Shown in pieces: positions 31,683 through 51,767 of a stretch of 56,262 nt of DNA. The stretch's first letter is position 1. Each line of letters starts with the position of its first letter. The notes under the pieces are model-generated. The model saw nothing but the letters and a program-made list of their open reading frames with translations. It was not told where the DNA came from and made no database searches. Position numbers and translations under genes: made by a program. The stretch is from Actinomyces succiniciruminis (GTDB lineage: Bacteria; Actinomycetota; Actinomycetes; Actinomycetales; Actinomycetaceae), in NCBI RefSeq assembly GCF_900002405.1, contig NZ_LK995471.1, positions 1 through 56,262 on the forward strand, read 5' to 3'.

Positions 31683-31790
31683 CACGAACACCACTCCTAC
31701 AAACCGCAAGCCGAAGCCTTCGCCGATCCGGAACCCGTCAAGCGTAACAAGATGATCACCCCTACGCCTTGGGGAGCCCAACGCGACTAA

Positions 31791-31804
31791 CCGGGTATAC
31801 CCGG
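31791..31804 (-). promoter_or_regulatory. Operator-like palindrome (motif B), copy 1
   Basis: CCGGGTATACCCGG is a perfect 14-bp palindrome 109-122 nt upstream of the 31682 lipoprotein start. A 13/14 match lies at a similar distance upstream of the paralogue at 52082, and the flanking 25 bases (AGTCG, GTTG, GCGT in order) are also conserved. Probably a binding site or promoter element. Confidence 0.55.
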
Positions 31805-31870
31805 GCACCGCCTGCCCTCGACACCTCTGACCCCAGTCACGCGTTTGAAGCCGGAGCATGACAACACCCG

Positions 31871-36051: not shown

Positions 36052-36106
36052 AGGCTACGTTCTTGCATGCCACACAACTAGGGGCGAACGCCCCGTCTAC
36101 GCCCCA
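36052..36106 (-). promoter_or_regulatory. Motif-A promoter of the giant Flp-signal gene
   Basis: Reading the plus strand: AGGGGC (36080-36085), GAAC, GCCCC (36090-36094), GTCTAC, GCCCC (36101-36105). On the transcribed strand the site ends 22 nt before a TAGCCT -10 box (36052-36057). The predicted start is near 36044, giving a short leader of about 30 nt. The same design precedes flp and the main tad operon. Confidence 0.65.
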
Positions 36107-36108
36107 AC

Positions 36109-36813
36109 CTAGCCCTCCGAGCCCTCATCGCGCCCCAGCACCATTGCGCTGCACAGCGCCGCATAGGCGTACGCGTTCTCCAACGCTCCCCTCGCCCCGT
36201 ACGCCACCACCGTGTACGCCCGGTCTTCTTCCGCCACACAGAACAGGGCGATTGCGTCCACCGACGTTTCCTGCGACCAGCCCGGAGGCACGGTGCGCTG
36301 GTTCCAGGTCATCTGCACGCATTGGGTGATGCCGTCCCATTCGAGCGTCTTCGGCTCGGATGGCGTGATGAGCGCCGCTATCAGACGCTGCCGCTCGGCA
36401 TTGGCCGCATTCTTCGCGGCTGATTGGTCGTCGGCGCCAAATGAGTGCGGTCCCTCGACCACCAGATAGCCCCAGTCGTCCTCGCCTGTCCACACGTAGG
36501 TGACCTGGGCTCGACCGTCACCTACCCGCTCGGGCTTCAGGGCCTGCGCTTCCCCGGGCAGCGTCAGCTGTATACCGGTCACGGGTTCTACCGTCTGGCC
36601 AGAAACCGTCATGGGCGCGGCGGTGACGCCTGGCGCGTCTGCGGAGCTTGTATCGCCGGCCTGGGCGAGGCGGACTCCTCCACCTGATTCTTCTGATGAA
36701 GGATCCGGCGAGCACGAGGCAAGCGTTCCTGCAGCCCCGAAGGCAGCTGCGCCGACTACGTGGAGCAGCCGTCGTCGTGGCAGGCAAAAGGCCGTCAGTC
36801 TGCGTTCAGCCAT
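36109..36813 (-). CDS. Lipoprotein, Tat-type, PsbP/MOG1-like
   Basis: The 234-aa product begins with a charged n-region containing PRRRLL, a hydrophobic core and the lipobox LASC. A Ser/Gly linker leads to a domain with 'GIQLTLPGEAQALKPE', 'AQVTYVWTGEDDWGYLVV' and 'VDAIALFCVAEEDRAYTVV'. It is the last gene of the operon starting at 41884 and overlaps the preceding gene by 19 nt. Confidence 0.75.
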   Translation of the reverse strand: MAERRLTAFCLPRRRLLHVVGAAAFGAAGTLASCSPDPSSEESGGGVRLAQAGDTSSADAPGVTAAPMTVSGQTVEPVTGIQLTLPGEAQALKPERVGDGRAQVTYVWTGEDDWGYLVVEGPHSFGADDQSAAKNAANAERQRLIAALITPSEPKTLEWDGITQCVQMTWNQRTVPPGWSQETSVDAIALFCVAEEDRAYTVVAYGARGALENAYAYAALCSAMVLGRDEGSEG

Positions 36814-37808
36814 ATGCTCCGCTCCATCCCGGCGACGATGCTTTCATCGGCGGCCCCTGAGAAAGCCAGTTGAATCGCACTGACCGTATCCGCAACTTTC
36901 AGTACCCAAAGACTTCCGCGGGAGTTTCTGCCGTTACCGTAGGCGAAGTCCACGCGAGTACCGGAGGCGTCCTCCTGGCCGTCGAGGGCAAGTTCCACGG
37001 GCTCCGACAGCCGCGCGTATCTAGGCAGCGCACCCGCTACCGCGTCGGACTCGATTTGGGCGAGCGCATCGACCACGCCGGGCTCGCCCGTGTCGGACGC
37101 GAGTAGCACCCGCACTCGTGCGGCACCATCCAGGTCGGCATCGGCCCAGCTGTCGGTCCAGCGCGTAGATCCGGCTGGGGCTCCGGTAACCTTCCAGCTG
37201 CCCGGCACGGCGAAACTCGTAGCGCCCCGTCCCACCCTGGCCCAACCGCTGTCGACGGCGGGCAAGTCGTTGGGGAGTAGCGAAAGCTCGGTATCCACCA
37301 CGTCGCGGTAGCTCTTATCGAGGGTCTCCGCCGTAAGCATTACGGCGACGGAGGTCCGTTCATCCGTCAGTAACCAGATTCTTCCTGTGGTTGCGCCGCT
37401 GAAAGTGGTGGCAAAGTCCTCGTACAGTATCTGCGTGCCGTCGCGTTCGGCCGATGCTGGTTGGCTGGTCACCCGGAAGCCGGGCAGGCCACTGCGTAGC
37501 GCAGATTCGGCCTCGGCCATCAGTCCCTGTGGATCAAGCCCGGCTGACGGCACGCCGACGGCGAGAACGTGTGCGGGTGCCGCCGTTTCCTGCCACATGT
37601 CGGAGAACAGGCCGATGCCTTTGGGGACCGCTGTGTGCTGCCAGTTCTTGCGCACCGGAACATAGGCTCCGGAGACGACGGCACGTTCCCAGCCTGAGGG
37701 CATCACCGAGGAACCCGAGCATGCGGTCATCCCGATCAGCGGCGCCATCGCAAACAGCCCGACGGCGTGGCGGCGGCTGAATCCAGGGGTATGCGAGGAG
37801 CGGTTCAT
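36795..37808 (-). CDS. Tat-type lipoprotein with two related domains
   Basis: The 337-aa product has SRRHAV followed by a hydrophobic core and lipobox MTAC. Two domains follow, like those of the gene at 32314; the second shares with that protein 'VLLAS/LLVAP', 'ALAQIE', an 'AG-LP-Y' stretch and the 'SLWVLKVADTVSAIQLAF' type strand. The two genes are probably paralogues. It overlaps its upstream neighbour by ATGA. Function unknown; extracellular, lipid-anchored by inference. Confidence 0.75.
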   Translation of the reverse strand: MNRSSHTPGFSRRHAVGLFAMAPLIGMTACSGSSVMPSGWERAVVSGAYVPVRKNWQHTAVPKGIGLFSDMWQETAAPAHVLAVGVPSAGLDPQGLMAEAESALRSGLPGFRVTSQPASAERDGTQILYEDFATTFSGATTGRIWLLTDERTSVAVMLTAETLDKSYRDVVDTELSLLPNDLPAVDSGWARVGRGATSFAVPGSWKVTGAPAGSTRWTDSWADADLDGAARVRVLLASDTGEPGVVDALAQIESDAVAGALPRYARLSEPVELALDGQEDASGTRVDFAYGNGRNSRGSLWVLKVADTVSAIQLAFSGAADESIVAGMERSIWLNAD

Positions 37809-38488
37809 GCGTCGTCCTCTGTCAGCGATGCCTCTACTGCGGCACGGATCGCATCGTCGTCGGCGAGGAGCACGACGACGATGTAACCGCCGCTCCCGGG
37901 CACGATCCAGGCGGCCCCGCTGGCGTCAGCGTCCGCTCGTTCGTAGGTGAAGGTGATCCGTGCGATCGTGCCCGCAATCGTGCTCGCCTGGTCGATCGTC
38001 GGCGCGGATGTTGCTGCGTCTTCCTCCGGCGTCGCCTCCGCCCCGGGCGTGCCCGGATCCTGCGGTTCGGCGGAGTTTATGGACTCGGGGAAGGTAAACG
38101 CTCCGGTCGGTTGATAGCCCGTGATGCTGGAGGACAGCAGCGCCGAACCTGCTTGGTAGGCCTGCTCGGCGCTGGTGGTGGGGAGGGCGTCGCTAATGGC
38201 CAGAACCGGCTCGGCGTCTCCGTCGGGATCGGTCATGTGGAGTGCCCAGGGATCATCGTCGGTGCCGTCGTCCGTCATATCCTCGGCGTGTGAGTGGGTC
38301 ACCCACGTACTGGGGAGTTGCAAGGCGACGCCGTTCGCGTTCGCAGTCTGGGTCAGCACCGTCTCCACGGGGACGGGAGTCGTATCCGGCAGGGCGGTGC
38401 CGCCACCAGAGCACGCGCTCAGCGGCGTGGTCACGATGACAATGCCGGCGAGTTGCGCCAGGAGCCCCTGCGTGGAGTGTCTGTTCAC
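37805..38488 (-). CDS. Lipoprotein, PsbP/MOG1-like
   Basis: The 227-aa product starts at a GTG (38488) that overlaps the previous stop, has a hydrophobic signal ending in the lipobox LSAC, and one domain with 'NGVALQLPSTWVTHSHAEDM' and 'GAAWIVPGSGGYIVVVLLAD'. An acidic Ala/Pro/Glu linker splits the domain in the middle. It belongs to the same lipoprotein group as its neighbours. Confidence 0.72.
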   Translation of the reverse strand: MNRHSTQGLLAQLAGIVIVTTPLSACSGGGTALPDTTPVPVETVLTQTANANGVALQLPSTWVTHSHAEDMTDDGTDDDPWALHMTDPDGDAEPVLAISDALPTTSAEQAYQAGSALLSSSITGYQPTGAFTFPESINSAEPQDPGTPGAEATPEEDAATSAPTIDQASTIAGTIARITFTYERADADASGAAWIVPGSGGYIVVVLLADDDAIRAAVEASLTEDDA

Positions 38489-39621
38489 CGTTCCTCCTTG
38501 GACACGAACTCACGGCGCCCAAGTGCATCAAGGTCACCGAGCCTCTCGGTGGCGGTGACCGTCAAGTCGGCGTCGGTATGCTCCGGGTCGTCGCGGAGAA
38601 GCTGCGGGGTGACGCCCGAGAATTCCCCTCCGGCGGAGAGAGTCTCACGCGTCACCTGGCCCGTGGTGTGCACCAGGCGGAGCAAGATCTCGTCATCCGC
38701 GTCCACCGATGCGGTGCTCTCCCACAACTCGTCGGGAAGACTCGGGCCGTCGACGGTGAAGGTGGAGACCCACTGGTCCAGCGCTTCCCGGCTGGAGTCG
38801 GTGACAGGGATACTGATCGTGGTCCACTTGACTTGGTCGTCGCTCTCCGAACTCGCACCGATGATAGTGACGGAGTGGAGGAGACCGCCTCGAGAGCGCT
38901 CGACGCTCACGCGGGCAACGGTGTCCGTGGACTGCTGCCACGCCCAGGATTCGCTTGTGGCCCCATCGCGCAGGCGCTGCGAGTGGCGGTAGAAGATCGG
39001 GGCGTCGCTTGATTCGTCCTGTGCAAGGAAGCTGTTAGACAATGTCAGGTCGAGTGTTCTGGTTTCGGACTCGATTCCGACGAAGGGGTCCAGCCCGAGC
39101 AGTGACAGCCGCTCGGCCCCCTGGGTCCGATCGGCCGTGGAGTCGCTCTGCAGTCCTTCCCAGACGTCGCAGGGTCCGGAAGTGGACGTGCCGCATGGAA
39201 GGTCGTCGAGCGCAATCAGCATGGAATCGTCGCTGAACCCACTCTGCGCAGTATCGGCCGAGGTCGACCAAAGCTGTGTCAGCGACTGCGATGAACCCGC
39301 CGGAACCGCCGCTGTTCTGCCCGCGACGCTATTATGGCTGCCGGGCGGGACCGAATCGAGCCCGGCACCCAAAAACACGGCGCGTTCGTCAGATGCGGCG
39401 GGGAGCGCGCCGGTGTCGAAAAATGACGGGGTAGCATCGCCGGATGGCACGGTCTTACACGTATCGGAATCGATCACGCACAGTCCACGCTGCAGCGTGC
39501 CGGTTGTCGCAAGTATCGCAACGAGGCCGATCAAGGCGACGACGGCGATCATTCCCCGGTACCCGCCAAGGCCGCGCTCGGCACGTATATGTTTGGGGAG
39601 CTTGGGCAGAAGGCGCTTCAT
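38485..39621 (-). CDS. Prepilin-like exported protein
   Basis: The 378-aa product has a basic leader (1-22) ending in 'GGYRG', directly followed by a hydrophobic helix 'MIAVVALIGLVAILATTG' (23-40), which resembles TadG/TadE-type class III signals, and then a large extracytoplasmic domain with several Cys (48, 55 and a 'CGTSTSGPC' pair). No known domain is recognised in the body. It is coupled by ATGA to the TadG-like gene upstream, and is probably a minor pilin or pilus-associated protein. Confidence 0.65.
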   Translation of the reverse strand: MKRLLPKLPKHIRAERGLGGYRGMIAVVALIGLVAILATTGTLQRGLCVIDSDTCKTVPSGDATPSFFDTGALPAASDERAVFLGAGLDSVPPGSHNSVAGRTAAVPAGSSQSLTQLWSTSADTAQSGFSDDSMLIALDDLPCGTSTSGPCDVWEGLQSDSTADRTQGAERLSLLGLDPFVGIESETRTLDLTLSNSFLAQDESSDAPIFYRHSQRLRDGATSESWAWQQSTDTVARVSVERSRGGLLHSVTIIGASSESDDQVKWTTISIPVTDSSREALDQWVSTFTVDGPSLPDELWESTASVDADDEILLRLVHTTGQVTRETLSAGGEFSGVTPQLLRDDPEHTDADLTVTATERLGDLDALGRREFVSKEER

Positions 39622-40337
39622 CTCGACGAAACGAGCTTGGTGCTGACTACGGCCGAATCGACCAGGTCGTCGGTCAGGTCGAAGGAATCCTCGTCAGTGT
39701 CCTCGTCGTCCTCAGAATCCGCTGTCTCTTTCGGAGTGTTCGTGTCCAGTCCGAAGCCCACGCCAGGCCGGGTGTAGCAGGCGCCATCGAACGACACACC
39801 CAGTAAGCCTCCAGACACGCATACGCCCTGCTCGAAGTTCATCTCGGCGGTGGCGGTAGAGGTGGACTGCAGGCCGGTCTCGGCGATCTCGTCGTCCATG
39901 CGCACCGATGCCTGGAAACGCAGACCTGACAACTGGTTATAGGACGTCAAGGTGGCATCGTTGCTGCTCGCGTACTGGCTCGCCTGCGTGGAAGCACCCG
40001 AGCAGTAGGAAAAGACCGGTTTGCCGAAGTAGCTCCAGAACGTTTCCGCATCCGTGGCGAGCAGTGCATCCTCATAAGTAGCTTCGATCCGGTCCGCGCA
40101 GTAACCGGCCGCCGCCAGCGCCGCCGCGTCTGATGCAGTATTGGCATTCCGGCGGTCCGCAATCGCATCACCCAGCGGAATGATGATAATCATACCGACG
40201 GCGAGCATCACGGCCAGTGCACCTACTAGGAAAACATTAATCGCGCCACATTCGTTTCGACGCAAACGACAGCGCAAACATGACACGAATCTTCGCGCAT
40301 TTAAATGGAAGGCATCCATACGATAGCCTACGAGCAT
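39618..40337 (-). CDS. TadG/TadE-like pilus assembly protein
   Basis: The 239-aa product shows the N-terminal pattern of Flp-pilus TadE/G-like proteins: 'CGAINVFLVGALAVMLAVGM' (30-49), then 'ADRRNANTASDAAALAAAGY', the classic R...ASDAAALAAA stretch. The C-terminal part is acidic and Ser/Thr-rich. The ATG at 40337 has a good GAGGG at 7 nt; a GTG at 40358 that overlaps the previous stop is the alternative. It lies between an OmpA-domain lipoprotein and a prepilin-like gene. Confidence 0.8.
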   Translation of the reverse strand: MLVGYRMDAFHLNARRFVSCLRCRLRRNECGAINVFLVGALAVMLAVGMIIIIPLGDAIADRRNANTASDAAALAAAGYCADRIEATYEDALLATDAETFWSYFGKPVFSYCSGASTQASQYASSNDATLTSYNQLSGLRFQASVRMDDEIAETGLQSTSTATAEMNFEQGVCVSGGLLGVSFDGACYTRPGVGFGLDTNTPKETADSEDDEDTDEDSFDLTDDLVDSAVVSTKLVSSR

Positions 40338-40354
40338 ATAAACACCCTCGCAGA

Positions 40355-41884
40355 TCACGCGTCAACCACCGGAATGTCCGTTAGACGTACTCGGACGTTT
40401 TCTCCGGGCACATCAAGCACAACCTTGTCTCCCCCACAGTCGGGCCATACCACAGGAAGTGACCTCGAGTCACCAGCGACTAAGTCATACACGATTGGGA
40501 CAGTCAAGGGAGTAAAATACTCGCTACTCGAACTAAGGTAATCGACCAGAAGATAGCGTTTGTCTCCATCCAACAGAGTCAAATTGTACGCACCCTGCCA
40601 CAACGCTTGCCAACGAACAGACTGGAGCTCGCGCGGCAGTACGAACCGGTGTGCCTTAGCGGTCAGCCCCTCTGATGCGCTCAAAACGACGTTACCGACC
40701 AGGTATTCGCCGACCCTGGTGACGCTGTCCAGGGAGATACGGGCCGGCACCCCGTCAACCTCGATATCCACCCCGTCCGGACCACGACCAACCGGCCCGG
40801 CCGCCTCCGGCATGTCACCCGAGTCGGCAGACGAACCACCAGCCACACCGGTCGCCTCGTCGGGGTCGGCGGGAGTCAGCAGCACCTCCACCCGCCGGTT
40901 CAACTGCCGATTCTCATCCGAGTCATTCGGCACCCGCGGCTCAGACTCACCCTTACCCGACACCGACACATCCCAACCAGACAAGTCCGCCAGCCCACCC
41001 AGACGATCCGACACCGACTGCGCCCGCCGCTCCGACAAATCCTGATTGTGCTCATCGGTGTTCACATCATCCGTATGACCCGTAATCGCCAGCGATCCGC
41101 CCGAGGGGTAGAGCTCCAGCTGCTCCACCACAGCCCCAAGCACCTCATCCGCCTCATCGGACAACTCCGCCGAATCGTCCGCAAACAACACGTCACCCGA
41201 CACATTCACCGTCGTCGACACATCATCACTGGCCGTATCCGACGAACCATCCGCCGCCACAACCACCGAATTCAACTCAAACGGACCAGACTCAACACTC
41301 TCATCAAACTCAGCGGCCGCCAACGCCGCATCCACATCAAACCCAGCCTCATCCGCACCAACCACCGGCACCCCAAGCGCCACACCCACATTCGGCAAAA
41401 ACACATCCACCGAACTCAAACCATCCGGCACGCCCCCAAACACCGGAAACAACTCAAGGTCGGCATCTTCTGCGATATCTACGTGACTGAACTTAGTGCT
41501 CGTATTCACTTCGGGAAAGACTAAAGCTCTTTCCAAAACCATGAGCCTGAGCCCCGACATCGAATACGTATATCTTCCGCCGTCATCGAGCGCGCGCCCG
41601 ATGTGCACACTTTCGTCAGAGTCAGTACCGACAACCAATCGCACCACCGTGTAACCATCCTGCACCACCGCAGGACCCACCTCAGCAATCAGCGACACTG
41701 CTTCCCATGCCCACTTGAGGACGACGCTATTCTCAGAGCCAATTGGCGTAGACGTTGTAGCCTGACCCGCCTCTGTAGATGGTCGCGATTCAGGGGATTC
41801 TTGGTCCGAGCATGCGGAGACAGCTGCTTGGCTAGCCAACATGATCGGCGCCAACAAAGCAAATCGTCTACTTGTTTTTATCAT
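40355..41884 (-). CDS. OmpA-domain lipoprotein, paralogue 2
   Basis: The 509-aa product starts with a clear twin-arginine lipoprotein signal (TSRRFALL, lipobox VSAC). Architecture equals that of the gene at 30141: N-terminal domain, OmpA/MotB-like domain ('TGHTDDVNTDEHNQDLSERR', 'NRRVEVLLTP') and a C-terminal domain ending in the same 'RLTDIPVVDA'. The OmpA-coding DNA is almost the same as in paralogue 1 (about 5 differences in 95 nt around 41050-41130), while the N-terminal parts differ more. It begins the operon that runs to 36109. AAGGG precedes the ATG at 41884. Confidence 0.85.
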   Translation of the reverse strand: MIKTSRRFALLAPIMLASQAAVSACSDQESPESRPSTEAGQATTSTPIGSENSVVLKWAWEAVSLIAEVGPAVVQDGYTVVRLVVGTDSDESVHIGRALDDGGRYTYSMSGLRLMVLERALVFPEVNTSTKFSHVDIAEDADLELFPVFGGVPDGLSSVDVFLPNVGVALGVPVVGADEAGFDVDAALAAAEFDESVESGPFELNSVVVAADGSSDTASDDVSTTVNVSGDVLFADDSAELSDEADEVLGAVVEQLELYPSGGSLAITGHTDDVNTDEHNQDLSERRAQSVSDRLGGLADLSGWDVSVSGKGESEPRVPNDSDENRQLNRRVEVLLTPADPDEATGVAGGSSADSGDMPEAAGPVGRGPDGVDIEVDGVPARISLDSVTRVGEYLVGNVVLSASEGLTAKAHRFVLPRELQSVRWQALWQGAYNLTLLDGDKRYLLVDYLSSSSEYFTPLTVPIVYDLVAGDSRSLPVVWPDCGGDKVVLDVPGENVRVRLTDIPVVDA

Positions 41885-42001
41885 CAATCGGCCCTTTCGC
41901 TCGTTAGCTGACTGCGCCATCATGAATACTACCACCTACCGCATACATAATCCACTCACGCGCGCATGGCCACTAACTAATTCTCTGGCAACCCCGCACG
42001 C

Positions 42002-42042
42002 GTTTGGGCCTACACGCGCGACAGCTGCGTGCAGGCCCAAAC
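42002..42042 (-). terminator. Terminator hairpin after flp
   Basis: GTTTGGGCCT (42002-42011) pairs with AGGCCCAAAC (42033-42042), and CACGC/GCGTG extends the stem inside. It lies 36 nt past the flp stop and separates flp from the OmpA-domain lipoprotein operon. Such a terminator is expected where a major pilin needs more transcript than its neighbours. Confidence 0.7.
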
Positions 42043-42077
42043 ACATGCGGCCCAGAAGACCGGAGGTCGACATGACC

Positions 42078-42299
42078 TCAGCGGCCCTCGAAAATCTTGT
42101 CGAGCTGCCCCTTGATCTTTTCTCCGAGATCGTAGTTGTCCAGCGCAGTAATGATAGCCGTGACCAGAATCACTGCCACGACAATCACTCCGGCGTACTC
42201 CGCCGCGCCCTGTCCGACCTCGGATTCCGCGACACGCCTCTTGACATCATCGAGCCACATACGAGCACGGACCTGAGCGGCGAGAACTGAATTCGACAT
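42078..42299 (-). CDS. flp: Flp family pilin (major Tad pilin)
   Basis: The 73-aa product is a typical Flp pilin: a charged leader, Gly29 as cleavage site, QGAAEY with Glu at +5 and Tyr at +6, and a ~22-residue hydrophobic helix ('AGVIVVAVILVTAIITAL'), then a short charged tail. The ATG at 42299 is preceded by a perfect AGGAGG; upstream in-frame sequence is not pilin-like. It forms its own unit between a motif-A promoter and a terminator, just downstream of the response regulator. Confidence 0.92.
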   Translation of the reverse strand: MSNSVLAAQVRARMWLDDVKRRVAESEVGQGAAEYAGVIVVAVILVTAIITALDNYDLGEKIKGQLDKIFEGR

Positions 42300-42378
42300 G
42301 ATGTATCCTCCTGTTGAAGAAGACCGAGGCATCAACTCGGATCGTTGACTCCGGGACTCGTTCCCGTTGACGTTGTCA

Positions 42379-42435
42379 ACACTACGGGCGCTGGGCGCCC
42401 CTCGAATAGGGGCATATGCCCCGAACACTGCCCCT
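42379..42435 (-). promoter_or_regulatory. Motif-A promoter of flp
   Basis: Reading the plus strand: AGGGGC (42408-42413), ATAT, GCCCC (42418-42422), GAACACT, GCCCC (42430-42434). The -10-like TAGTGT (42379-42384) lies 23 nt from the site on the transcribed strand. GGGGCATATGCCCC is a perfect palindrome. A further inverted repeat GTTGAC-GTT-GTCAAC (42366-42380) overlaps the -10 and the presumed start. The leader would be about 70 nt. Confidence 0.65.
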
Positions 42436-42450
42436 ACCTGCGTCCCCAGT

Positions 42451-43083
42451 TCATGAGTCCTCCGCCTCCTTCCATAGCAGAACCGCTTCCGCCCGACTGT
42501 GGACCCCCAGCTTCGCATACGCGGAGTTCATATAGTTCTTTACCGTTCGAGCCGACAGGAACTGCTCCTTGGCGATGTCCTGGTTGCTCATGCCTCGCGC
42601 GGCAGCATCCAGCACCTCCGCCTCACGCTCGGTCAGACGCGCAGTCAGCGGATTTGGACGTGCCTTGTCCCCCACACTTGCCACTTGCACGGTCAGCTTG
42701 TCGGCAACGCCCGGCCCGAGCACCGTTCCACCGCCGCTGCATGTAGCAATCGCTCCCGCGACCTCATCCACGCCCAAGTTTCCATGGATGAGGTACCCCT
42801 TGGCACCTCCCTTTATCGCGGAGGCGATGGTCTCGGCATCGTCATCCGAGGTCATCATGATCACACTGGCACGTTCAGCAAGTTCGGGCAGAGCCTCCAG
42901 GCCACCCATACCCGGCATGCGCACATCGAGTAACACCACGTCGGGGCCAAAGCTGCGCGCCTTTTCGATAGCCTCCAAACCGTCTGAGGCTTCCGCTACC
43001 TCATCGACCCCTGCGACGTGTTCTAGCACACGCCGCAGCCCCAAACGGACAATCGTGTTGTCATCAACGACCAGTAACTTCAC
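42451..43083 (-). CDS. LuxR/NarL-family response regulator
   Basis: The 210-aa product has an N-terminal receiver domain (1-115) with Asp7, Asp8, phospho-acceptor Asp53 ('LLDVRMPG'), Thr79 and Lys96 ('KGYL'), and a C-terminal LuxR-type helix-turn-helix (about 147-205: 'LTEREAEVLDAAARGMSNQD', 'RTVKNYMNSAYAKLGVHSRA'). The GTG start at 43083 overlaps the histidine kinase stop (GTGA), so the two form a pair. Located at the end of the tad operon and directly upstream of flp, it is the leading candidate to bind motif A. Confidence 0.93.
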   Translation of the reverse strand: MKLLVVDDNTIVRLGLRRVLEHVAGVDEVAEASDGLEAIEKARSFGPDVVLLDVRMPGMGGLEALPELAERASVIMMTSDDDAETIASAIKGGAKGYLIHGNLGVDEVAGAIATCSGGGTVLGPGVADKLTVQVASVGDKARPNPLTARLTEREAEVLDAAARGMSNQDIAKEQFLSARTVKNYMNSAYAKLGVHSRAEAVLLWKEAEDS

Positions 43084-44282
43084 GCTAAGATCCTTACTAC
43101 CGATCCAATCTTCTTAGACGCAGAGGCACGGGGAACTGTCGCGATAGCGCGTGTGCCACCATCTGGACTCACCGACAACTCCAGCCGACCGCCGAGAGCA
43201 GCAAGACGCTCGCGTACGCCGCACAACCCATAGTGCCCCGAGCCTCGCAGGTTGGATTGATCCTCTAGTATCCTCCTGGGCAATCCAACGCCGTTATCGT
43301 CAACAGTGAGATGAAGTGATTCCCCGCCAACGATCCGCACGTGTACCCTCGTAGCCTCTGCATGCTTCTCCACATTTGCCAGCAGCTCGCCCAGAACCCT
43401 TTGGGTCTGCCAAGTCAACTCAGCGTCACTGGCAACCTCATAACCAGAAACATCTATCAAGACTTCTGTGCCGACGCGTTTGCCCCAAGTCTCCGCATCC
43501 TGGCGCAGTTGCTCCCGGATGTCTCCCACCGGCGTCGACCGGAGCTCGTCGAGGACCGAACGGGCCTCCAAGCTCAAAGAATCTGCTGCGTCGAACAAGT
43601 CTTTCGCGTCGCGCGCATAGGCAGAGTTCTCCACTCCAAGGTCATTGACCAGCGCCTCAGCCAACATACGCACCCCGGCAGCCGATTTCGCCACCGTGTC
43701 ATGCAGATCCCGTGCTAGTACTAAGCGCTCCTCCGCAGCTGACTGCCGAGACCTCGCCTCCACCGCGTCCGCGGCCAGAGCCTCAACCCTGCCGACCTGC
43801 TGCGTCTGTCTGCGCCCCAGCAAGGCAAGCGCCACAGCGGCACCTGCGGCAACGACCGTCATAATTATAAGTTGGGGAATGTAATGAATTAACTCAGTCG
43901 CACCTACAGTAACTAACGCACACCAGGCCGCCAGCGCTCTATCACCGGCGATCATTCCCATCAAGAATGCGGTTACCTGTAAGTAGCCAAGCGCGAGTGC
44001 GGCAGGTGTACCCGAATATTGGAACCCAACTACCAGCAGCGTGAGTGCCGTGATCCCATCCCATGCAACGAAGTACACGCTACCTACGATGCGCCTAGTT
44101 GTTCGCCCCCATCGGAACAAGAGAGCGCAACTGCACGGCACCGCACAGAGGGTGATCACCACAACCGTCCAGTCCAGTGCGCAGACCGCCGCAACTAGTA
44201 GCAACAACACCAACCTGATATCGCTGAGTACACGCACAGTAGGCGCCAACGCCGCCTCGGCGAGCAGCTTATTCTCACCCAT
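43080..44282 (-). CDS. Two-component sensor histidine kinase (HisKA_3 type)
   Basis: The 400-aa product has an N-terminal membrane domain of about five to six helices (20-155), the dimerisation and phosphorylation segment 'LARDLHDTVAKSAAGVRM' with His194, and a C-terminal ATPase domain with N box ('ELLANVEKHAEATRVHV') and G boxes ('DDNGVGLP', 'GSGHYGLCGVRERLAALGG'). There is no large periplasmic sensor, so it may sense membrane or pilus state. ATG at 44282 overlaps the tadC stop by 8 nt. It is co-transcribed with the pilus machinery. Confidence 0.9.
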   Translation of the reverse strand: MGENKLLAEAALAPTVRVLSDIRLVLLLLVAAVCALDWTVVVITLCAVPCSCALLFRWGRTTRRIVGSVYFVAWDGITALTLLVVGFQYSGTPAALALGYLQVTAFLMGMIAGDRALAAWCALVTVGATELIHYIPQLIIMTVVAAGAAVALALLGRRQTQQVGRVEALAADAVEARSRQSAAEERLVLARDLHDTVAKSAAGVRMLAEALVNDLGVENSAYARDAKDLFDAADSLSLEARSVLDELRSTPVGDIREQLRQDAETWGKRVGTEVLIDVSGYEVASDAELTWQTQRVLGELLANVEKHAEATRVHVRIVGGESLHLTVDDNGVGLPRRILEDQSNLRGSGHYGLCGVRERLAALGGRLELSVSPDGGTRAIATVPRASASKKIGSVVRILA

Positions 44283-45168
44283 TGAACAGTCCTGAAATCG
44301 AATCCATATTGCTGATGAGCATTCCCCCAACGATAAGCACAATGGCTCCTGGCACGATGCAGATGGTGACCACCAGGGACACCTTGGGCTGAGACTTAGC
44401 CGCCTGTCTGCGTACCTGCTGTCCCCGTTCGCGACGCACTTCTTGGGAGATTTGCCGCAAAGCCTCTTCTAGCGGCGTGCCCAATTCCTCGGACTGCAGC
44501 AGTGCGGTGACGAACGAGGCAACGTTCTCTGAGCGGGTACGGTCACGTAGCCCCTCAAGCGCCTGCCGGCGGGGCACCCCGAGTTGCATCTCCCGCAGAG
44601 TCAGACGCATCTCCTCAGCCAGCGCCCCGCTGTGCTGTTCGGCCACGCGCTGCAGCGCCACGCGGAAGGGCAGGCCAGCCGACACGGTCACGGCGAACAC
44701 ATCCAGGAAATCGGGCAGGTCACGCTCAATCCGCTGCTGACGGCGCCGCAAGGTGAGCAGCAGCCAGGTGTGCATCCAGCATACGAACAGCGTACCTAGC
44801 ACCACGCCAATGAATGTCTGACCATTCAGCACGGCCAGCACCATGAGCACCAGGCCCAGGCTGGCGAAGCCGGCCTCGCGCTGAATGAAGGTCTGCGCCG
44901 TGACATCTGCCGGCTGACCGGCGGCGCGCAGCTGCCATGCCAAACGCTTGATCCGCTCCGTGCCGTACAAATCGAGCAGTAGGCTCTGGGTCACGCGGCC
45001 CAACAGGTCCACAGTCCTGGTGAACGGCCCCGTGCGCTGTGCCACCTCGGCTGACGCCTGCTCGCCGGAGGCCAGCAAGTCATCCACCAAAGACGCACGC
45101 GCCATGCGTATCCCTTGGGCTCCCAACAGCACCATCGTGGCAGCGAGCATTCCAAACAACGCAGCCAT
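44275..45168 (-). CDS. tadC: Tad pilus platform protein TadC
   Basis: TadC and TadB form the inner-membrane platform of the pilus machine. The 297-aa product has an N-terminal membrane segment, a central pair of membrane helices (about 100-135), the T2SSF cytoplasmic domain ('DLPDFLDVFAVTVSAGLPF', 'LREMQLGVPRRQALEGLRDR') and a C-terminal membrane segment. It follows tadB by 2 nt. Confidence 0.88.
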   Translation of the reverse strand: MAALFGMLAATMVLLGAQGIRMARASLVDDLLASGEQASAEVAQRTGPFTRTVDLLGRVTQSLLLDLYGTERIKRLAWQLRAAGQPADVTAQTFIQREAGFASLGLVLMVLAVLNGQTFIGVVLGTLFVCWMHTWLLLTLRRRQQRIERDLPDFLDVFAVTVSAGLPFRVALQRVAEQHSGALAEEMRLTLREMQLGVPRRQALEGLRDRTRSENVASFVTALLQSEELGTPLEEALRQISQEVRRERGQQVRRQAAKSQPKVSLVVTICIVPGAIVLIVGGMLISNMDSISGLFNG

Positions 45169-45170
45169 GC

Positions 45171-46097
45171 CTATACCTCCACCCGCGATACGGCTCGCAT
45201 GAGCACGAATCCCACCGCGAAGAAGGCCGCCGCCACCAGCATGATGACGCGCCCCACCATGCTCCCCGCCATTTCGTCAAGGAGCCCGGGTTGGATCATG
45301 TTCAGCAGCACAATTGCGCCCACACCGATCCCCATCACCGCATATCCGGCTACCGATGATCCCAGGATCACGGTGCTGACCTCGCGTCGCAACTCCTTGC
45401 GATCCTCCAGGGTCTGGGAGATGTCAGTCAGTGCCGCGCTCAACGCGCCGCCCGTACGGGACTGGATCACGATCGTACGCACCAGCACGTCGATCTCCCG
45501 CGACGGCAGTCGTTCAGCCAATTCGTGCAACGCCTGATCCAGGCTCACGCCAAGGTCCAGGCGCTGGGCGACCTGACGCATCTCCGCGCCGGCGGGCTCG
45601 GCGAGCTCCCGCCCGGCCATCGCCAGGCAGCGCCCGATGGATAGACCCGCCGAGTTGCCGTTGGCAACCACTCGCGCCAACTCGGGAAGCTGTGCGATGA
45701 AGTCCTCCTTACGCTTGGCGCGCCGCCGGCTAAGCCACTGCCAGAACAGCAGGGGGAGCATGAGCGCCAGAACGGTGCTGGCAACACGTCCCAGCAGTGG
45801 GCGCCCACCGATCATTACTGCCAACATCGCTCCGGCGATCGCGGAAACCGTGAGCAAGGGCGACCAGTTCACACCCGCCGTTGTCATACTGCGTGCCAGC
45901 GCCCCCAGCGGACCACGAGCGATCAGCCGACGCTCGATCAGCTTGATCCGTTCCGAACCCGTGGCGCGCGCACCGACCGTTTCCTCCCACAGGGCCCGGC
46001 GGCGCCCGGACTCGTCCAGGAGCACGGTGGTTCCCCAGACGCCAAACACCAGGGTGGCTACGAGCACCAGCAGAATGACGCGTACCGACGGTGTCAT
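45171..46097 (-). CDS. tadB: Tad pilus platform protein TadB
   Basis: The 308-aa product has an N-terminal membrane helix, two central helices (about 85-125), the T2SSF domain ('QLPELARVVANGNSAGLSI', 'AERLPSREIDVLVRTIVIQ', 'GGALSAALTDISQTLEDR') and C-terminal helices. It overlaps tadA by ATGA, consistent with a fixed platform order A-B-C. Confidence 0.88.
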   Translation of the reverse strand: MTPSVRVILLVLVATLVFGVWGTTVLLDESGRRRALWEETVGARATGSERIKLIERRLIARGPLGALARSMTTAGVNWSPLLTVSAIAGAMLAVMIGGRPLLGRVASTVLALMLPLLFWQWLSRRRAKRKEDFIAQLPELARVVANGNSAGLSIGRCLAMAGRELAEPAGAEMRQVAQRLDLGVSLDQALHELAERLPSREIDVLVRTIVIQSRTGGALSAALTDISQTLEDRKELRREVSTVILGSSVAGYAVMGIGVGAIVLLNMIQPGLLDEMAGSMVGRVIMLVAAAFFAVGFVLMRAVSRVEV

Positions 46098-47377
46098 AGG
46101 GTGCCTCCGGCGAAGGCCTCGGGCAGGGGTTCTCCCAACAGCGACAGGCGTGTCTCCGTCTCCTCAGGCAGTGCTTCGAAACGGAACACGCCGCCCTGGG
46201 AGCGGGTCTCGGTGTAACGCATAATCGGCTGAGTGGCGTAATTGTCGCGGTGCTCGGAGGTAACCACCTCTATCTGCCGCACCCGGCGCGCCCCAGTGGT
46301 ATCCCGTTCCAGCTGGATGATCACGTCTATGGCGCTGTTGATCTGGTCCCTGACCGTTTCCACGGGCAGCTCCAGGTCAGACATGCTGGCAAGCGTCTCC
46401 AGACGGCTCAAGGCATCGCGTGCGGAGTTGGCGTGCACGGTGGTAAGTGAGCCCTCATGACCGGTGTTCATGGCCTGGAGCATGTCCATGGTCTCACCGC
46501 CACGAACCTCACCAACCACAATCCGGTCCGGACGCATACGCAACGAGTTGCGTACCAGGTCACGGATGGTGACCTGCCCCTTGCCCTCGGAGTTGGCGGG
46601 GCGCGCCTCCAGCCTGACCACGTGGCTCTGCTGGAGGGACAGCTCGGCCGAATCCTCGATCGTGATGATGCGCTCCCGGTCCGGAATCAGGCCCGAAAGG
46701 GCGTTGAGGAAGGTGGTCTTCCCCGTGCCGGTACCGCCGGACACCAGGATATTCAGCCGTGCCCGCACCATCATGTTCAGCAGTTCTGCCGCCTCCTGCG
46801 GCAGTGATGCCCGGGCCACCAGGTCGGGCATGCGGAACGGGCGGGGGAAGCGACGAATCGTCATGGTGGGGCCGTCCAGCGCGAGCGGCGGAATGATCAC
46901 GTTGACGCGCTCACCGCCGACCAGGCGGGCATCCACCATGGGGCTGGACTCATCCACCCGGCGGTTGACCGTGGAGACGATCCGGTCAATGGTCTGGTAC
47001 AGCTCCTCCTCCGAGGTAAAAGCCGCGGGAATCCGCTCAATGCGCCCGTTCCGTTCAACGAACAGGTCGTGGACGCCGTTGACCATGATCTCCGTAATCG
47101 AGTCGTCTGCGATCAACGGCTCAAGTACACCCAGGCCCACCGTGTCATCGACGATCCGCTGAATAAGGCGGGCACGGTTCCGGGTGGACATGACCGGCCC
47201 CTCGACCGAAAGAATGCGGGCCAACACGCGCTCCAGGCGCGCGCGTTTCTGCGGCATCTCCAGACTGGCGATCTCCTCGATGTTGATCTCTTCGAGGAGC
47301 CGGGCACGGAAGCGCTTGACGAGTTCGTTGTTCTCATCGGTAAGGGCCTCGGGGGCCACGCGGTCTCTCAGCGCCAC
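46094..47377 (-). CDS. tadA: Tad pilus assembly ATPase TadA/CpaF
   Basis: TadA is the hexameric ATPase that powers Flp pilus assembly. The 427-aa product has the N-terminal CpaF region ('[20 protein letters not shown]'), Walker A 'GGTGTGKT' (214-221), Walker B 'RIVVGEVR' (285-292) and the His box '[12 protein letters not shown]' (307-318). The start is GTG at 47377 behind GGGAGGG, overlapping the TadE stop by 10 nt. Confidence 0.95.
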
Positions 47378-47769
47378 GACGATCCCTCCCGCTGGCGGAA
47401 GGTGGCCTCGGAACTGAGGTTAATGTGGGTTATGTCCACTACCCCTAGGATGCCGATCGGCGCCCTTCCCGCGACTTTCACGCAGCCTCGGCCGCAGGAG
47501 CTGACCGAGTCGAGCTCGATCGAGTCCGGCATGGATGCGGTTACAGCGGCGTACACGGAGTCTCCCCGCTCAGCGGCGCGGGCGCCGTCCCTGGCCGCGT
47601 CACGGACGTGCGAGGCCGCCATCATCGCCGCGATCCCCTGACTGAGAACGATCAGGACGATCAACACAATTGGGATGAATGCAGCCAGCTCAAGGGCTGA
47701 CTGCCCCTCGTCACGCCTGCGCAACCGCCGAATCATCTGCATGGTCCAGCGTGGCATTGTCATTGTCAT
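47368..47769 (-). CDS. TadE-like minor pilin
   Basis: The 133-aa product has a basic leader, then GQSALEL with Glu at +5 of the likely cleavage site, a ~20-residue hydrophobic helix ('AAFIPIVLIVLIVLSQGIAA') and the TadE-type 'RDAARDGARAAERGD' stretch, ending in a small exported domain with a Cys pair. It is a minor pseudopilin. The start is the first ATG of an ATGACAATGACAATG run. Confidence 0.85.
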   Translation of the reverse strand: MTMTMPRWTMQMIRRLRRRDEGQSALELAAFIPIVLIVLIVLSQGIAAMMAASHVRDAARDGARAAERGDSVYAAVTASMPDSIELDSVSSCGRGCVKVAGRAPIGILGVVDITHINLSSEATFRQREGSSWR

Positions 47770-47775
47770 CGTCGT

Positions 47776-49488
47776 TCACCTCTCCCGTTCCACGTGCGCG
47801 GTTGCTACTGCCGGGCCAATGCCGGGGATCATTCCGGGAATCTCGATGCTGACTCGCACATCGGAACCCGAGCTGGACACGCTCAGCCCAGAGGCGAGTG
47901 ATCCCGGCATCCGTTCCGATACCGCCGCCATAACCTGCTGATGCGACATGCCGACGGCGTAGTTGCGCGCCGCCTCCTGCGCGGAGTTGTGTGCCACGAG
48001 GGATACGCCCCCGAACAGCAGCAGCTCGAAGCACAGGAAGAACACGCCCAGGGCGATGATGAAAGCACCGGCGAACTCCACCGCGGTAGCACCCCGCTCC
48101 CCCGATTCGGGTTCCGCACTCCGACGCCTCCCCCCGATGGACGGCAGCCTCATGCCTCGACCGTGATCATTCTCCTCCGCCGCACGCCTGGCGCGACGTC
48201 CCTGGGGCACGGGTGCTGCTGGCGACGGCGAGGGCGGTGGGGGAGCCGCCGGCGGAGCTGCCGCTCCGGGCGCGAAGGCCGGTGGCAGCCCGGCAGCCCC
48301 GGTTTGCGAATCGGGTACGGCAGCCGCGCCAACCGGTTCTGCCGCAAGTACGGCAACCGGGTTGAGCAATTCCGCGACCGCCTGACCGATCTCTGTGAAA
48401 ACCGGCAGGTCCAGGTCCAGCAGTGTTCCCGTGTTCAGTGCCGGTTCCAGGCGCTGCGCGCTCTCCGGCAGGGTTCCGAGCAAGGGCGCGTCCATTAGCT
48501 TTGCGGCACCGGCGGGCTGAATCTCGTTGTTACGCGAGGTCCGGTTGAGCACCACCTGCAGCGGTGTGCTGCGAGCGAGTTCCAGCCGTTCGAGTGTTTC
48601 CTTGAAGCGGCGTACCGCGCGCAGTGCCGGCACCTCCGGAGTGGTCACCACCACGATCGTGTCGGCCAGCTCCATGGCGCCCGCGGTGCCCTCGTCCAGT
48701 CGGGAGCCGCAGTCGATGACCACGTGGTCGTATTGATAGCGCAGCGCCTGCACGATCTGCCGGGCGGCGGCCTCGGTCATCTCCTCGCCCATCTCGCCGT
48801 GCTCGGGCGCGGGTAGCAACTCAATGCCGGATCTGACCGGATAGGCGACCTCGGAGACTTCGCGGCCGCCGAGCTCTGCGGCGACGGAGACCAGGTCCAC
48901 CACCGAGTGCCGCACCCGGATGCCGCAGTAGGAGGCGAGGTCGCCTCCCCGCAGGTCCAGGTCCAGCAAGACCGTGCGGCCCCTGCCCGCGGCGGCTTTG
49001 GCGGCGGACAGGGCGATCATGGAGGTGCCCACGCCGCCCTTGGCGCCGATAAGCGCCACCACACGGCCAACAGGACGCCCCAGTGACTCGCGCTCCTGCT
49101 CCACGTATCCATGCGCGGCACGGGTCCAGGCCGAAAGCGAGCGCAGTCGTTCCGCATAGCGTTCCACCGACGGGGGCAGCGGGAGCACCGCCCTGACGCC
49201 GGCATCGACGGCGCGTAGCACCGAATCGGCGTCCATTCGGGTCGTCAGCAGGCAGATCGGGATCAGCGGCTCAAGTGTCGCCAGCTCACGGACCGCCGCG
49301 AGTCCCTGTCCGTCCTCTACGGACTCATCCACCAGCACCAGGTCGATGTCCCTGCGCTGGAACTCCAACCGGGCCTGGGCTACGGAGACGAGCACGATTG
49401 GCGTTGAGAACCCGTCCAGCTCCTCCAATACGGCCGTCACCGCTGCCGGAGTCTGCGTGTCCGAGCTGATCAGTAGGGCCTGGGTCAT
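47776..49488 (-). CDS. CpaE/TadZ ATPase fused to a TadE-like pseudopilin
   Basis: The 570-aa product has three parts. Residues 1-120 look like a degenerate receiver domain; 140-~375 are a MinD/ParA-type ATPase with the atypical Walker A 'AKGGVGTS' (149-156) typical of TadZ/CpaE, which localises the pilus machine. After a Pro/Ala-rich linker (~385-430) come 125 residues of TadE type (446-570): GATAVEF with Glu at +5 (Gly466 as cleavage site), a hydrophobic helix and 'NSAQEAARNYA'. The reading frame is open throughout. An in-frame ATG at 48153 could start the TadE part alone. Confidence 0.85.
   Translation of the reverse strand: MTQALLISSDTQTPAAVTAVLEELDGFSTPIVLVSVAQARLEFQRRDIDLVLVDESVEDGQGLAAVRELATLEPLIPICLLTTRMDADSVLRAVDAGVRAVLPLPPSVERYAERLRSLSAWTRAAHGYVEQERESLGRPVGRVVALIGAKGGVGTSMIALSAAKAAAGRGRTVLLDLDLRGGDLASYCGIRVRHSVVDLVSVAAELGGREVSEVAYPVRSGIELLPAPEHGEMGEEMTEAAARQIVQALRYQYDHVVIDCGSRLDEGTAGAMELADTIVVVTTPEVPALRAVRRFKETLERLELARSTPLQVVLNRTSRNNEIQPAGAAKLMDAPLLGTLPESAQRLEPALNTGTLLDLDLPVFTEIGQAVAELLNPVAVLAAEPVGAAAVPDSQTGAAGLPPAFAPGAAAPPAAPPPPSPSPAAPVPQGRRARRAAEENDHGRGMRLPSIGGRRRSAEPESGERGATAVEFAGAFIIALGVFFLCFELLLFGGVSLVAHNSAQEAARNYAVGMSHQQVMAAVSERMPGSLASGLSVSSSGSDVRVSIEIPGMIPGIGPAVATAHVERER
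48150..48180 (-). promoter_or_regulatory. Possible internal start for the TadE part
   Basis: Inside the fusion gene a GGAGGAGA sequence (48171-48178 on the plus strand as its complement) precedes an ATG (48170-48168) opening a 6-codon frame (MITVEA) that ends in TGA overlapping the ATG at 48153 as ATGA. The ATG at 48153 is in frame with TadE. Re-initiation there would give a free 125-aa TadE pseudopilin. Confidence 0.4.
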
Positions 49489-50243
49489 GACTGGTTTCCT
49501 TCAATCGTTGAAGTGTTGGGGTCCGTCGCCGCCTGGGCTGGAGCGGATACGGGGTCGGAGTAGGTGGCCTGGTCGTCTGTGAGAGGCGCGCTGTCTCCGG
49601 TTCCGCGCAGCGCCAGGCGGAGCTTGACGGCGAAGCTCTCGGCGTAGGCGACCTTGAGGCTGTCCGTGGTGGACAGTGCGAAGGTGACGGGCACTGCCTG
49701 GCTCTCGGAGAAGGCTCCGGAGGAGTCCTCCGACTCAACCGTCGTAGCTACTCCCACGTTGATAATGAGTGCGTTCTGCACCACCACCTGTGCGGTGCGC
49801 TCCTTGGTCTCCTGGTTCTCGACCGTGGCGATGATGTCCACGTAGTCGCCGGAGGAGATGCGTCCGGCGACGCCAGTCTCGGCGTCGACCATGATGGCCA
49901 CCTCCCGGTTGCCCTCGGCCAGCCCGGGCGGTTCGGTGAGCATTCCCGTCTGTAGGACCGACCCGGTGGCGTATGCCCCGACCGTGACCAAGCCCTCGAC
50001 CTGCCCATAGGAGGACACCGCATTGTCCGGCGCCCACCGCTGCGGAACCTCAACCACTTCCACATCACTCTCCGTGATCTGGTGCATGGCCTCGACGTCC
50101 GTGGTCAGTTCGAGCACCTGCGTCATCGGCCCCACCTGCGAGGAGACCGAACTGACGTAGGCCGCGACGCCGATGAAGGTGAGCGCCGCGCCTAGGAGAG
50201 TGACCAGAAGCAGCAGTACTCCGCGTCGCTGACGTGGGTTCAT
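49485..50243 (-). CDS. cpaB: CpaB/RcpC-type pilus protein with SAF domain
   Basis: The 252-aa product has one N-terminal membrane segment (7-29), then an SAF-like domain ('AMHQITESDVEVVEVPQRWA', 'GLVTVGAYATGSVLQTGML') and the RcpC/CpaB core ('VDAETGVAGRISSGDYVDII', 'VVVQNALIINVG'). In Gram-negatives CpaB is tied to the outer-membrane secretin; here, without an outer membrane, it probably acts at the cell wall. It overlaps both neighbours by ATGA. Confidence 0.85.
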   Translation of the reverse strand: MNPRQRRGVLLLLVTLLGAALTFIGVAAYVSSVSSQVGPMTQVLELTTDVEAMHQITESDVEVVEVPQRWAPDNAVSSYGQVEGLVTVGAYATGSVLQTGMLTEPPGLAEGNREVAIMVDAETGVAGRISSGDYVDIIATVENQETKERTAQVVVQNALIINVGVATTVESEDSSGAFSESQAVPVTFALSTTDSLKVAYAESFAVKLRLALRGTGDSAPLTDDQATYSDPVSAPAQAATDPNTSTIEGNQS

Positions 50244-51013
50244 GGGATTCGCCTCTCAGCAGTAGGGGTTGAAGCAGGGGTGTTCGGTCGGATCCAGGTC
50301 CCGCAGAACGGGCATCCAGTCGTCGGAATGGTTCTGCCGCAGCTACGGCAGCTCGTTGTGCGCACAGCGGTCAGTGCGCGATTGACTGCTAGTCGCAGGT
50401 CGTCAATGGTGGACACCTCGGCCCACTTGCGGGCCCCGTAAGGGGAGTCGTCCGCGGGCGGCAGCAGCATCGTGGGCTGTCCGCCCACCAGAGAGACAGC
50501 GAGGTCACCCAAGTCCGAGCACGCTGCCCAGCAGATATCCCCGGCACCCTGTACGTTCCACTTGATTGGTTTGACGGAATCGACGCCGCCGCCGACCAGG
50601 TCCACGTCGAAGGAGGCACCCGGGAAGAAGCTACGGATATGCTGCATCAGGCTCGGTCGCGCCTGCGACAGGCGCGTAACAGAGGACATGGCCGCCCTGG
50701 TCTTGAGCTGTGCCCGCACGGTGTCCACAACCGGCCCGGCCACACCGTAGGAAGAAGGGGAAAGAAAGCTCAGGGCACGCACCAGGAGGGCCTGCTGCGT
50801 GCGCGATCCCGCGAGCGTGACTAGAGCTACGTCGCCACGTGCCAACACTTCACGCGCCATCAACGATGGCCGGGCCGCTGCCTCGGGGGAGCATACGAGT
50901 AGTGTGTCGCCCGCGCCTGCGGAGATCGCGTCGACGGATTCGTCTAACGATGACAGCACTCGACAGTTCTCGGCGGCCGGTTCACCGATGGCGACGGCGG
51001 AAACCAGAATCAC
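50240..51013 (-). CDS. Zinc-ribbon protein of the tad operon
   Basis: Not recognised as a named family. The 257-aa product is soluble by sequence, with an alpha/beta-like body and a C-terminal zinc ribbon (Cys222-x2-Cys225 and Cys234-x2-Cys237, 'CRSCG' and 'CPFCG'). The start is a GTG at 51013 behind a GAGGGGG purine stretch; upstream in-frame codons have no ribosome-binding site. It lies directly before cpaB with an ATGA overlap, so it is a likely cytoplasmic partner of the pilus machine, perhaps an adaptor of the CpaE-TadE protein. Confidence 0.7.
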   Translation of the reverse strand: MILVSAVAIGEPAAENCRVLSSLDESVDAISAGAGDTLLVCSPEAAARPSLMAREVLARGDVALVTLAGSRTQQALLVRALSFLSPSSYGVAGPVVDTVRAQLKTRAAMSSVTRLSQARPSLMQHIRSFFPGASFDVDLVGGGVDSVKPIKWNVQGAGDICWAACSDLGDLAVSLVGGQPTMLLPPADDSPYGARKWAEVSTIDDLRLAVNRALTAVRTTSCRSCGRTIPTTGCPFCGTWIRPNTPASTPTAERRIP

Positions 51014-51160
51014 GGGCGGGCCCCCTCGGGGTGTGCTAGGGCGGGAACAACGAGGTGCCATGTCACAGCTACGCAACGGACACGTGAGTCACGGTATCCG
51101 CTTAGCCGCCCGGACGTAAAGAAATAATCACGAGATGGTTGCCACATCGCGAAGCGGATG

Positions 51161-51616
51161 TCAGTAGCGCAGACCACCGCCGAGCTTCTCGCCCCGGTCA
51201 CCCCAGCTCCGGCCGCCCTGCGGCATCGTGTTGCTTCCGCCACGCAGCAAGGACAGCAGCACCCCGACGACAACCGCGAGGAGTGTCTGGGCCAGCGCAG
51301 CGTCAAAGGCATACCCCGCAAACACATGTACGCAGACAACTCCTGCCGGGATGAAGAATGCATAGGCAACCACGTGTGCAACTCTGAGACCACGCTCAAC
51401 ACTGCCCCGCCGTTCGAGCAGCAGCCCTCCGATAATGCTCGCGGCGAGTGCCCACGCCGTGTCCGCGAGCAGCAGGATCCGCACGGTAAGCAACGAATCC
51501 AGGTGAATCGATCCATCCAGCGGCAGGGGTAGGTGGGGAAGTGCCGTGATCCCTGCGGTCCCAAGCGCCGCGACCGTTGCCAGGTTGCCGGCCGACAACG
51601 TGTTGTCCTGTCCCAT
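51161..51616 (-). CDS. Small four-helix membrane protein, first in tad operon
   Basis: Not recognised. The 151-aa product has four predicted membrane segments (about 11-28, 42-66, 79-101, 106-124) and a basic Gly/Arg-rich tail. It lacks the aspartate and 'GxGD' motifs of prepilin peptidases (family A24), so it is not the missing peptidase on this evidence. The ATG at 51616 has GGAGGAAGG upstream. It is transcribed from the motif-A promoter 51713-51767, 148 nt ahead of the zinc-ribbon gene. Confidence 0.7.
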   Translation of the reverse strand: MGQDNTLSAGNLATVAALGTAGITALPHLPLPLDGSIHLDSLLTVRILLLADTAWALAASIIGGLLLERRGSVERGLRVAHVVAYAFFIPAGVVCVHVFAGYAFDAALAQTLLAVVVGVLLSLLRGGSNTMPQGGRSWGDRGEKLGGGLRY

Positions 51617-51712
51617 GCCTTCCTCCGACGCACATATGAGGAGGCTCGTTGCGTGCTCTCCCCGGACGCGCGTTCTGCCCCAGGGAGGCTGCAGATCCAC
51701 ACGCCCGCCGTC

Positions 51713-51767
51713 AGGCTAGGCAGGAATGACCCCTTTCCCCAGGGGCTCATGCCCCTGGATACGCCCC
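51713..51767 (-). promoter_or_regulatory. Motif-A promoter of the tad operon
   Basis: Reading the plus strand: AGGGGC (51741-51746), TCAT, GCCCC (51751-51755), TGGATAC, GCCCC (51763-51767). The site ends 22 nt before TAGCCT (51713-51718) on the transcribed strand; the same hexamer at the same distance precedes the giant Flp-signal gene. CCAGGGGC-TCAT-GCCCCTGG is an extended palindrome (51739-51758). The predicted leader is about 90 nt. Confidence 0.65.

Follow-up and report, generated by a model that had tools for sequence, protein, structure and literature searches.

The tad locus of Actinomyces succiniciruminis raises the question of how one Tad pilus system, encoded in three separate units on the minus strand, might be expressed together. 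We analyzed a stretch of 56,262 nt (contig NZ_LK995471.1, assembly GCF_900002405.1), referred to here as the window; coordinates are those of this whole stretch unless another contig is named. The three units, namely the tad operon, the flp operon and a gene for a protein with a Flp-type signal (the Flp-signal gene), each start below the same element. Read in the direction of the genes, it consists of GGGGC-N6/7-GGGGC-N4-GCCCC-T followed by a TANNNT box 23 or 24 nt from GCCCC. This motif at the Tad pilus promoters is real, and comparison between species makes it very probable that they serve as operators for the response regulator encoded at the end of the tad operon (Table 1).

Exact tripartite copies of the element occur three times in the window, with 0.00 expected from 100 dinucleotide shuffles and none in any of them. 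The palindrome GGGGC-N4-GCCCC alone is also found three times, against 0.25 expected. An earlier note on this DNA had placed three such sites, each with a TAGNNT box, before the three units, and all of them are found there, on the minus strand like their genes. The box distances of 22, 23 and 22 nt given in that note apply when counted from AGGGGC; counted from GCCCC they are 23, 24 and 23 nt.

The element is conserved together with the regulator. Close orthologues of the regulator (at least 53%) are present in 20 of 49 genus genomes, including this genome (G000; other G codes denote relatives), and in three other-genus genomes among 213 of the family. We oriented and scanned the 23 loci with a close regulator, 20 from the genus (G000 counted) and three from the other-genus genomes. 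Palindrome and box stand at flp in all 21 loci in which flp follows the regulator, G000 included (12 exact, nine with one mismatch); the two further loci are G031, where the contig ends, and G089, which has no flp at that place. Within 5–59 nt downstream of palindromes with at most one mismatch, the 23 loci contain 66 TANNNT boxes, of which 52 lie at 23 or 24 nt (15 and 37, respectively), compared with 1.0 expected at these two spacings from shuffles and zero to three observed at each other spacing. Upstream of the tad machinery, the element is present at 23/24 nt in 16 of the 20 genus genomes; in the remaining four, the spacing is 25 nt (G001 and G014) or the element was found in added flanking sequence, in G039 before a Flp-signal gene that heads the operon and in G013 without this arrangement. 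The motif is therefore kept at orthologous flp promoters, and the proposal that a single pilus system uses a single promoter design is borne out in other species.

We considered the third half-site as a fixed part of the element and rejected it in this role, with an exact GGGGC at -12 in nine of the 21 flp promoters and at least four of five letters in 17; in more distant loci, GGGNC is found at -11 or -12 in 9 of 14. Boxes lie on both sides of one palindrome, at 24 or 25 nt, in G001, G014, G022 (L154, ~291–304) and G020 (L159, ~623–636). This resembles a two-way promoter and is left unexplained by our model. By eye, GTCA directly after the flp -10 box (for example within 42365–42378 on the minus strand of the window) is repeated in many species. 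At the tad promoters of G015, G017, G048 and G042 (L155, L156, L160 and L158), whose first gene we take to be DUF192-like, the start codon lies 6–7 nt below the box, as in leaderless transcripts.

We searched the whole genome of A. succiniciruminis (3.33 Mb) with the tripartite pattern, allowing a spacer of N5-8 and using the backward pattern as control. There were five matches against one for the control: the three window sites, a site at C16:60883-60908, and one inside an open reading frame (ORF) of 621 amino acids that reads like a transporter gene. The bare palindrome is not enriched (21 against 34). A TANNNT box follows at 22–25 nt in 4 of these 21 palindromes, the three window sites and C16:98989, and the last has no half-site, so the sites are marked by place, box and half-site rather than by the palindrome alone. 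In terms of the genome-wide check suggested by the earlier note, the bare palindrome occurs at 17 other places and the full motif only once outside Flp-signal promoters. We further built a profile of 71 columns from 43 promoters of related genomes, with no row from G000; its training pool held 49 non-G000 sites, six of which, on the minus strand of oriented loci, were unused. This profile ranks the four G000 sites 1–4, with expectation values (E) of 3.5e-7, 3.1e-4, 4.5e-4 and 1.5e-3, followed by the next match at 0.21. The fourth site, C16:60883-60908, lies outside the window and is separated by 35 nt from the start of the 503-amino-acid ORF below it (C16:60944-62455; L164:4944-6455), in which a Flp-type signal is joined to a Peptidase_C2 (calpain) domain (Pfam, 3.6e-23).

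The candidate activator had been named as a LuxR regulator. Its candidacy is supported by the comparisons below, and the protein is better described as a response regulator of the NarL/DosR type that has a kinase partner. The protein matches Pfam Response_reg (7.5e-23) and the GerE helix-turn-helix (1.8e-18), and the acidic pair, phospho-Asp, Thr/Ser and switch aromatic of the receiver are kept in all 33 aligned sequences, with one Ser for Thr. Among the 25 matches listed, none of the curated equivalog cut-offs (NarL, NarP, MadR and others) was reached, the best match being to NarL at 119.1 bits against a cut-off of 250, so the regulator is not NarL itself. By its receiver, in which the usual switch lysine is replaced, it is an atypical member of the NarL/DosR-type fold family.

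The regulator and the site also differ together between clades. Distant tad loci keep the gene order and promoter layout, with GGG(T/C/A)C as left half-sites. At the order level, we compared ten loci, nine of them with a candidate flp promoter. At the class level, 151 of 394 genomes matched; among the matches listed, 28 loci were examined, the five with tad neighbours were used and each gave a candidate promoter, and the 23 without were dropped, as were six loci of a further contig scan. Base 4 of the left half-site is G in 21/21 near loci, and in the 14 distant loci it is C in nine, T in four and A in one. Residue 179 of the regulator is Arg in all 23 near loci and Lys in 10/10 order-level and 5/5 class-level loci; residue 184 is Tyr in 22 of 23 near loci and His in all ten of the order level. 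In DosR, Lys179, Lys182 and Asn183 are described as contacting bases (PMC4082495), and these align to R179, K182 and N183 of our regulator (numbering counted by hand). The clade-wise difference in helix and site gives strong support for the regulator–site link, short of proof.

With the TANNNT box taken as the -10 element, the centre of the palindrome falls at -42.5 or -43.5, and the palindrome covers the place where a -35 element usually lies. This position would fit a class II activator promoter, with its operator near -41.5 to -43.5, and is like that in DevR/DosR-type activation. The 21 flp promoters show no likeness to TTGACA above shuffles (at least three of six letters in 8, about 7.2 expected). 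The 16 tad-operon promoters lean somewhat towards a -35 element, with at least three of six letters matched in 11 (about 5.7 expected; best 5/6, in G021); for 15 other promoters, the count is 10, with about 6.1 expected from shuffles. The predicted dependence on an activator is therefore clearest at flp. A constitutive promoter with a -35 element is not favoured at flp and is less clear at the tad operon.

We propose that the membrane kinase controls the regulator, probably by phosphorylation, and that a regulator dimer would occupy the palindrome at about -42.5/-43.5, where a -35 element would otherwise stand. Further half-sites ~12 bp upstream, and in many flp promoters another one in the spacer, may aid cooperative binding. 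The bound regulator would then recruit a sigma-70-type RNA polymerase to the TANNNT box and activate the tad machinery, flp and the Flp-signal gene, as well as the Flp-signal/calpain gene beyond the window. All parts of the pilus appear to be turned on together; since the tad operon ends with the genes for kinase and regulator, the circuit would be self-reinforcing.

Several observations weigh against an operator shared by all of these genes and read by this regulator. Allowing one mismatch, the palindrome shows no excess in the window (7 found, 9.9 expected from shuffles). The Flp-signal gene was found in 15 genus loci, and no more than six of them have a full site at it (G000, G028, G037, G027, G041 and G039); in favour of the link, a copy goes with the gene both where it is divergent (G037) and where it heads the operon (G039). 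Two more loci have weak profile matches (G025, E 0.006; G003, E 0.013), and no site was seen in the other seven of the 15. The fourth site has CAGACT at 23 nt instead of TANNNT, with the start codon 6 nt after it. Matches to the calpain gene occur in G025, G027 and, partially, G012: that of G025 (74%, one stop in frame) keeps a one-mismatch palindrome and CAGACT, and that of G027 (55%), which lies ~390 kb away from the tad locus of that genome, shows a palindrome with one mismatch, a profile match at E 0.012 and no TANNNT at 23/24 nt. The tripartite pattern by itself shows no enrichment across the 49 genus genomes (74 matches, control 79); it numbers 39 against 22 for the control in the 20 regulator-positive genomes and 35 against 57 in the 29 others. 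The genus-wide total and the bare-palindrome count, neither above its backward control, could suggest that the palindromes arose by chance or belong to a mobile repeat, the genome being GC-rich. Location and cross-genus conservation speak against that explanation and the histogram of box spacings contradicts it, leaving it scarcely credible. A repressor operator would fit the overlap with the -35 zone, where repressors also sit, as well as the partial TTGACA likeness of the tad-operon promoters; we regard it as very improbable given the flp promoters, which have no such likeness, and the rigid box distance, as at DevR promoters with a proximal site over -35 (PMC3029386).

Activation by this particular regulator must also be weighed against binding of the same promoter class by another protein, such as a NarL-type paralogue or a tad-linked factor, for example the TadZ-like protein, which has a receiver domain. 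The close regulator and TadA (at least 71%) have identical distributions among the 49 genus genomes, both being present in the same 20, and two 20-kb regions around TadA paralogues of this genome have no site. Regulator and tad always occur together, and linkage by itself therefore does not tell the regulator apart from some other tad-linked factor. NarL-type paralogues at ~35–41% exist in all 49 genus genomes. The 29 genomes that lack the close regulator hold such paralogues, yet the profile matches at E <= 0.05 in 17 of them are all at 0.002 or weaker except in G006; in regulator-positive genomes, profile matches are circular except for G000, the other 19 having given training rows. G006 has two matches, at 4e-5 and 4.6e-4, in a place (L298, G006:C14:42001-55984) where ribosomal L11/L1 genes, an integrase-core ORF and a leader peptidase lie together with a shortened relative of the gene, presumably DUF192-like, that comes first in the tad loci of other species; we infer that it may be a relic tad locus. 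Further adverse points concern the comparison between clades. The near clade forms a single branch (support 100/98), so the helix/site difference is one contrast and a single evolutionary change. Base 4 of the right half-site is G in 18/21 near loci and also in 3/14 distant ones, G243 of the order level has no candidate flp promoter and was dropped, and two distant matches are weak, with shuffles as good in 12/300 (G554) and 17/300 (L238). Apart from this comparison, the receiver switch lysine, whose position we assigned from CheY, is absent, with His in 30, Tyr in three and Lys in none of the 33 sequences. As helix and site differ together between clades and the paralogue-bearing genomes are otherwise without strong matches, we consider another binder unlikely and retain the tad-linked regulator as the probable activator.

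The inferred promoters resemble known systems in part. At lux box promoters, the palindrome is centred at -42.5 and activation is of class II; the likeness lies in this position, and the differences in a ligand-binding LuxR protein and in a box of other sequence and length. The DevR/DosR regulon of Mycobacterium tuberculosis likewise has a NarL-type regulator. Its operator is reported as TTSGGGACTWWAGTCCCSAA (PMC2275270), or GGGAC-N4-GTCCC; it shares our 5-4-5 geometry and has A at base 4 of the half-site where ours has G, so the element is not a DevR/DosR operator. DevR promoters are described as having a proximal site that overlaps -35 and several cooperatively bound sites (PMC3029386, PMC5360333), the overlap here being deduced from geometry, and DevR is reported to act on SigA promoters (PMC5360333). 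DosR belongs to a system with the haem-containing sensor DosS (PMC4082495) and controls dormancy genes instead of Tad pili; the protein studied here differs from it in having Arg at residue 179 and His in place of the receiver lysine. In Pseudomonas aeruginosa, the flp-rcp-tad locus encodes, as here, a NarL/LuxR-type pair, PprA-PprB, which is reported to control positively the pilus genes, spread over several transcription units, together with adhesins elsewhere (PMC3510237). A further account gives GGCTAATAC as a putative PprB site and describes repression by PprB of its own gene (PMC6821963); the system here differs in these respects, and the two have no operator in common. In Micrococcus luteus, a kinase gene is reported within an rcpC-tadZ operon (PMC8467076).

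A literature search, with subscription papers mostly outside its reach, found no described operator or dedicated activator for actinobacterial Tad pili. The prediction of a new regulon of known kind is well supported. If true, one short signature predicts the Tad regulon in many actinobacteria, along with pilus-associated proteins whose genes lie apart from the locus, and the two clades offer a natural test of DNA reading by a NarL-type helix. A bolder and rather doubtful extension is that the Tad pili of actinobacteria share an ancestral operator code across the class. GGGNC-N4-GNCCC at 23/24 nt from the box would then be read by a response regulator with an atypical receiver that lacks the lysine, and its residue 179 would determine base 4. 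The regulon may have taken in Flp-signal proteins that carry enzymatic domains, among them a calpain-like protease, to be displayed or released by way of the pilus machinery.

Table 1. Sites, boxes and genes of the Tad pilus units in the window
Feature	Position	Strand	Remarks
Site 1, before Flp-signal gene	36081–36105	-	Palindrome 36081–36094 + upstream half-site; left-out profile rank 4 in genome
Site 1 -10-like box TAGCCT	36052–36057	-	23 nt from palindrome
Site 2, before flp	42409–42434	-	Palindrome 42409–42422 + half-site; left-out profile rank 1 in genome
Site 2 -10-like box TAGTGT	42379–42384	-	24 nt from palindrome
Site 3, before tad operon	51742–51767	-	Palindrome 51742–51755 + half-site; left-out profile rank 2 in genome
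Site 3 -10-like box TAGCCT	51713–51718	-	23 nt from palindrome
First tad operon gene, ~152 amino acids	51161–51619	-	Membrane-like by eye; no family above its cut-off
Tad machinery: 278-amino-acid protein without Pfam family, RcpC/CpaB, TadZ-like, TadE, TadA ATPase, two T2SSF (TadB/TadC)	44275–51076	-	
Sensor histidine kinase	43080–44342	-	HisKA_3 + HATPase_c
NarL/DosR-type response regulator, proposed activator	42451–43083	-	Last tad operon gene
flp pilin, 73 amino acids	42078–42299	-	Sequence signal and same place in relatives; no Pfam match
Rest of flp operon: OmpA-domain protein, TadE/G-like protein, four proteins without Pfam family at E 0.01	36109–41935	-	
Flp-signal protein, 474 amino acids	34588–36012	-	Flp/TadE-type prepilin signal; DUF4244-like at 24 bits, below Pfam cut-off of 27

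The locus contains the components expected of a Tad/Flp system, with TadA, TadB/C, TadZ, TadE, RcpC and a Flp pilin, the last assigned by position and signal only. Close gene spacing suggests co-transcription within each of the three units. The Flp-signal gene, previously called giant, encodes 474 amino acids (Table 1) and is followed by close ORFs down to ~32314. Three OmpA-domain proteins are encoded around the locus of this actinobacterial-type genome, at 30141–31859, 40355–41935 (minus strand) and 52082–53686 (plus strand).

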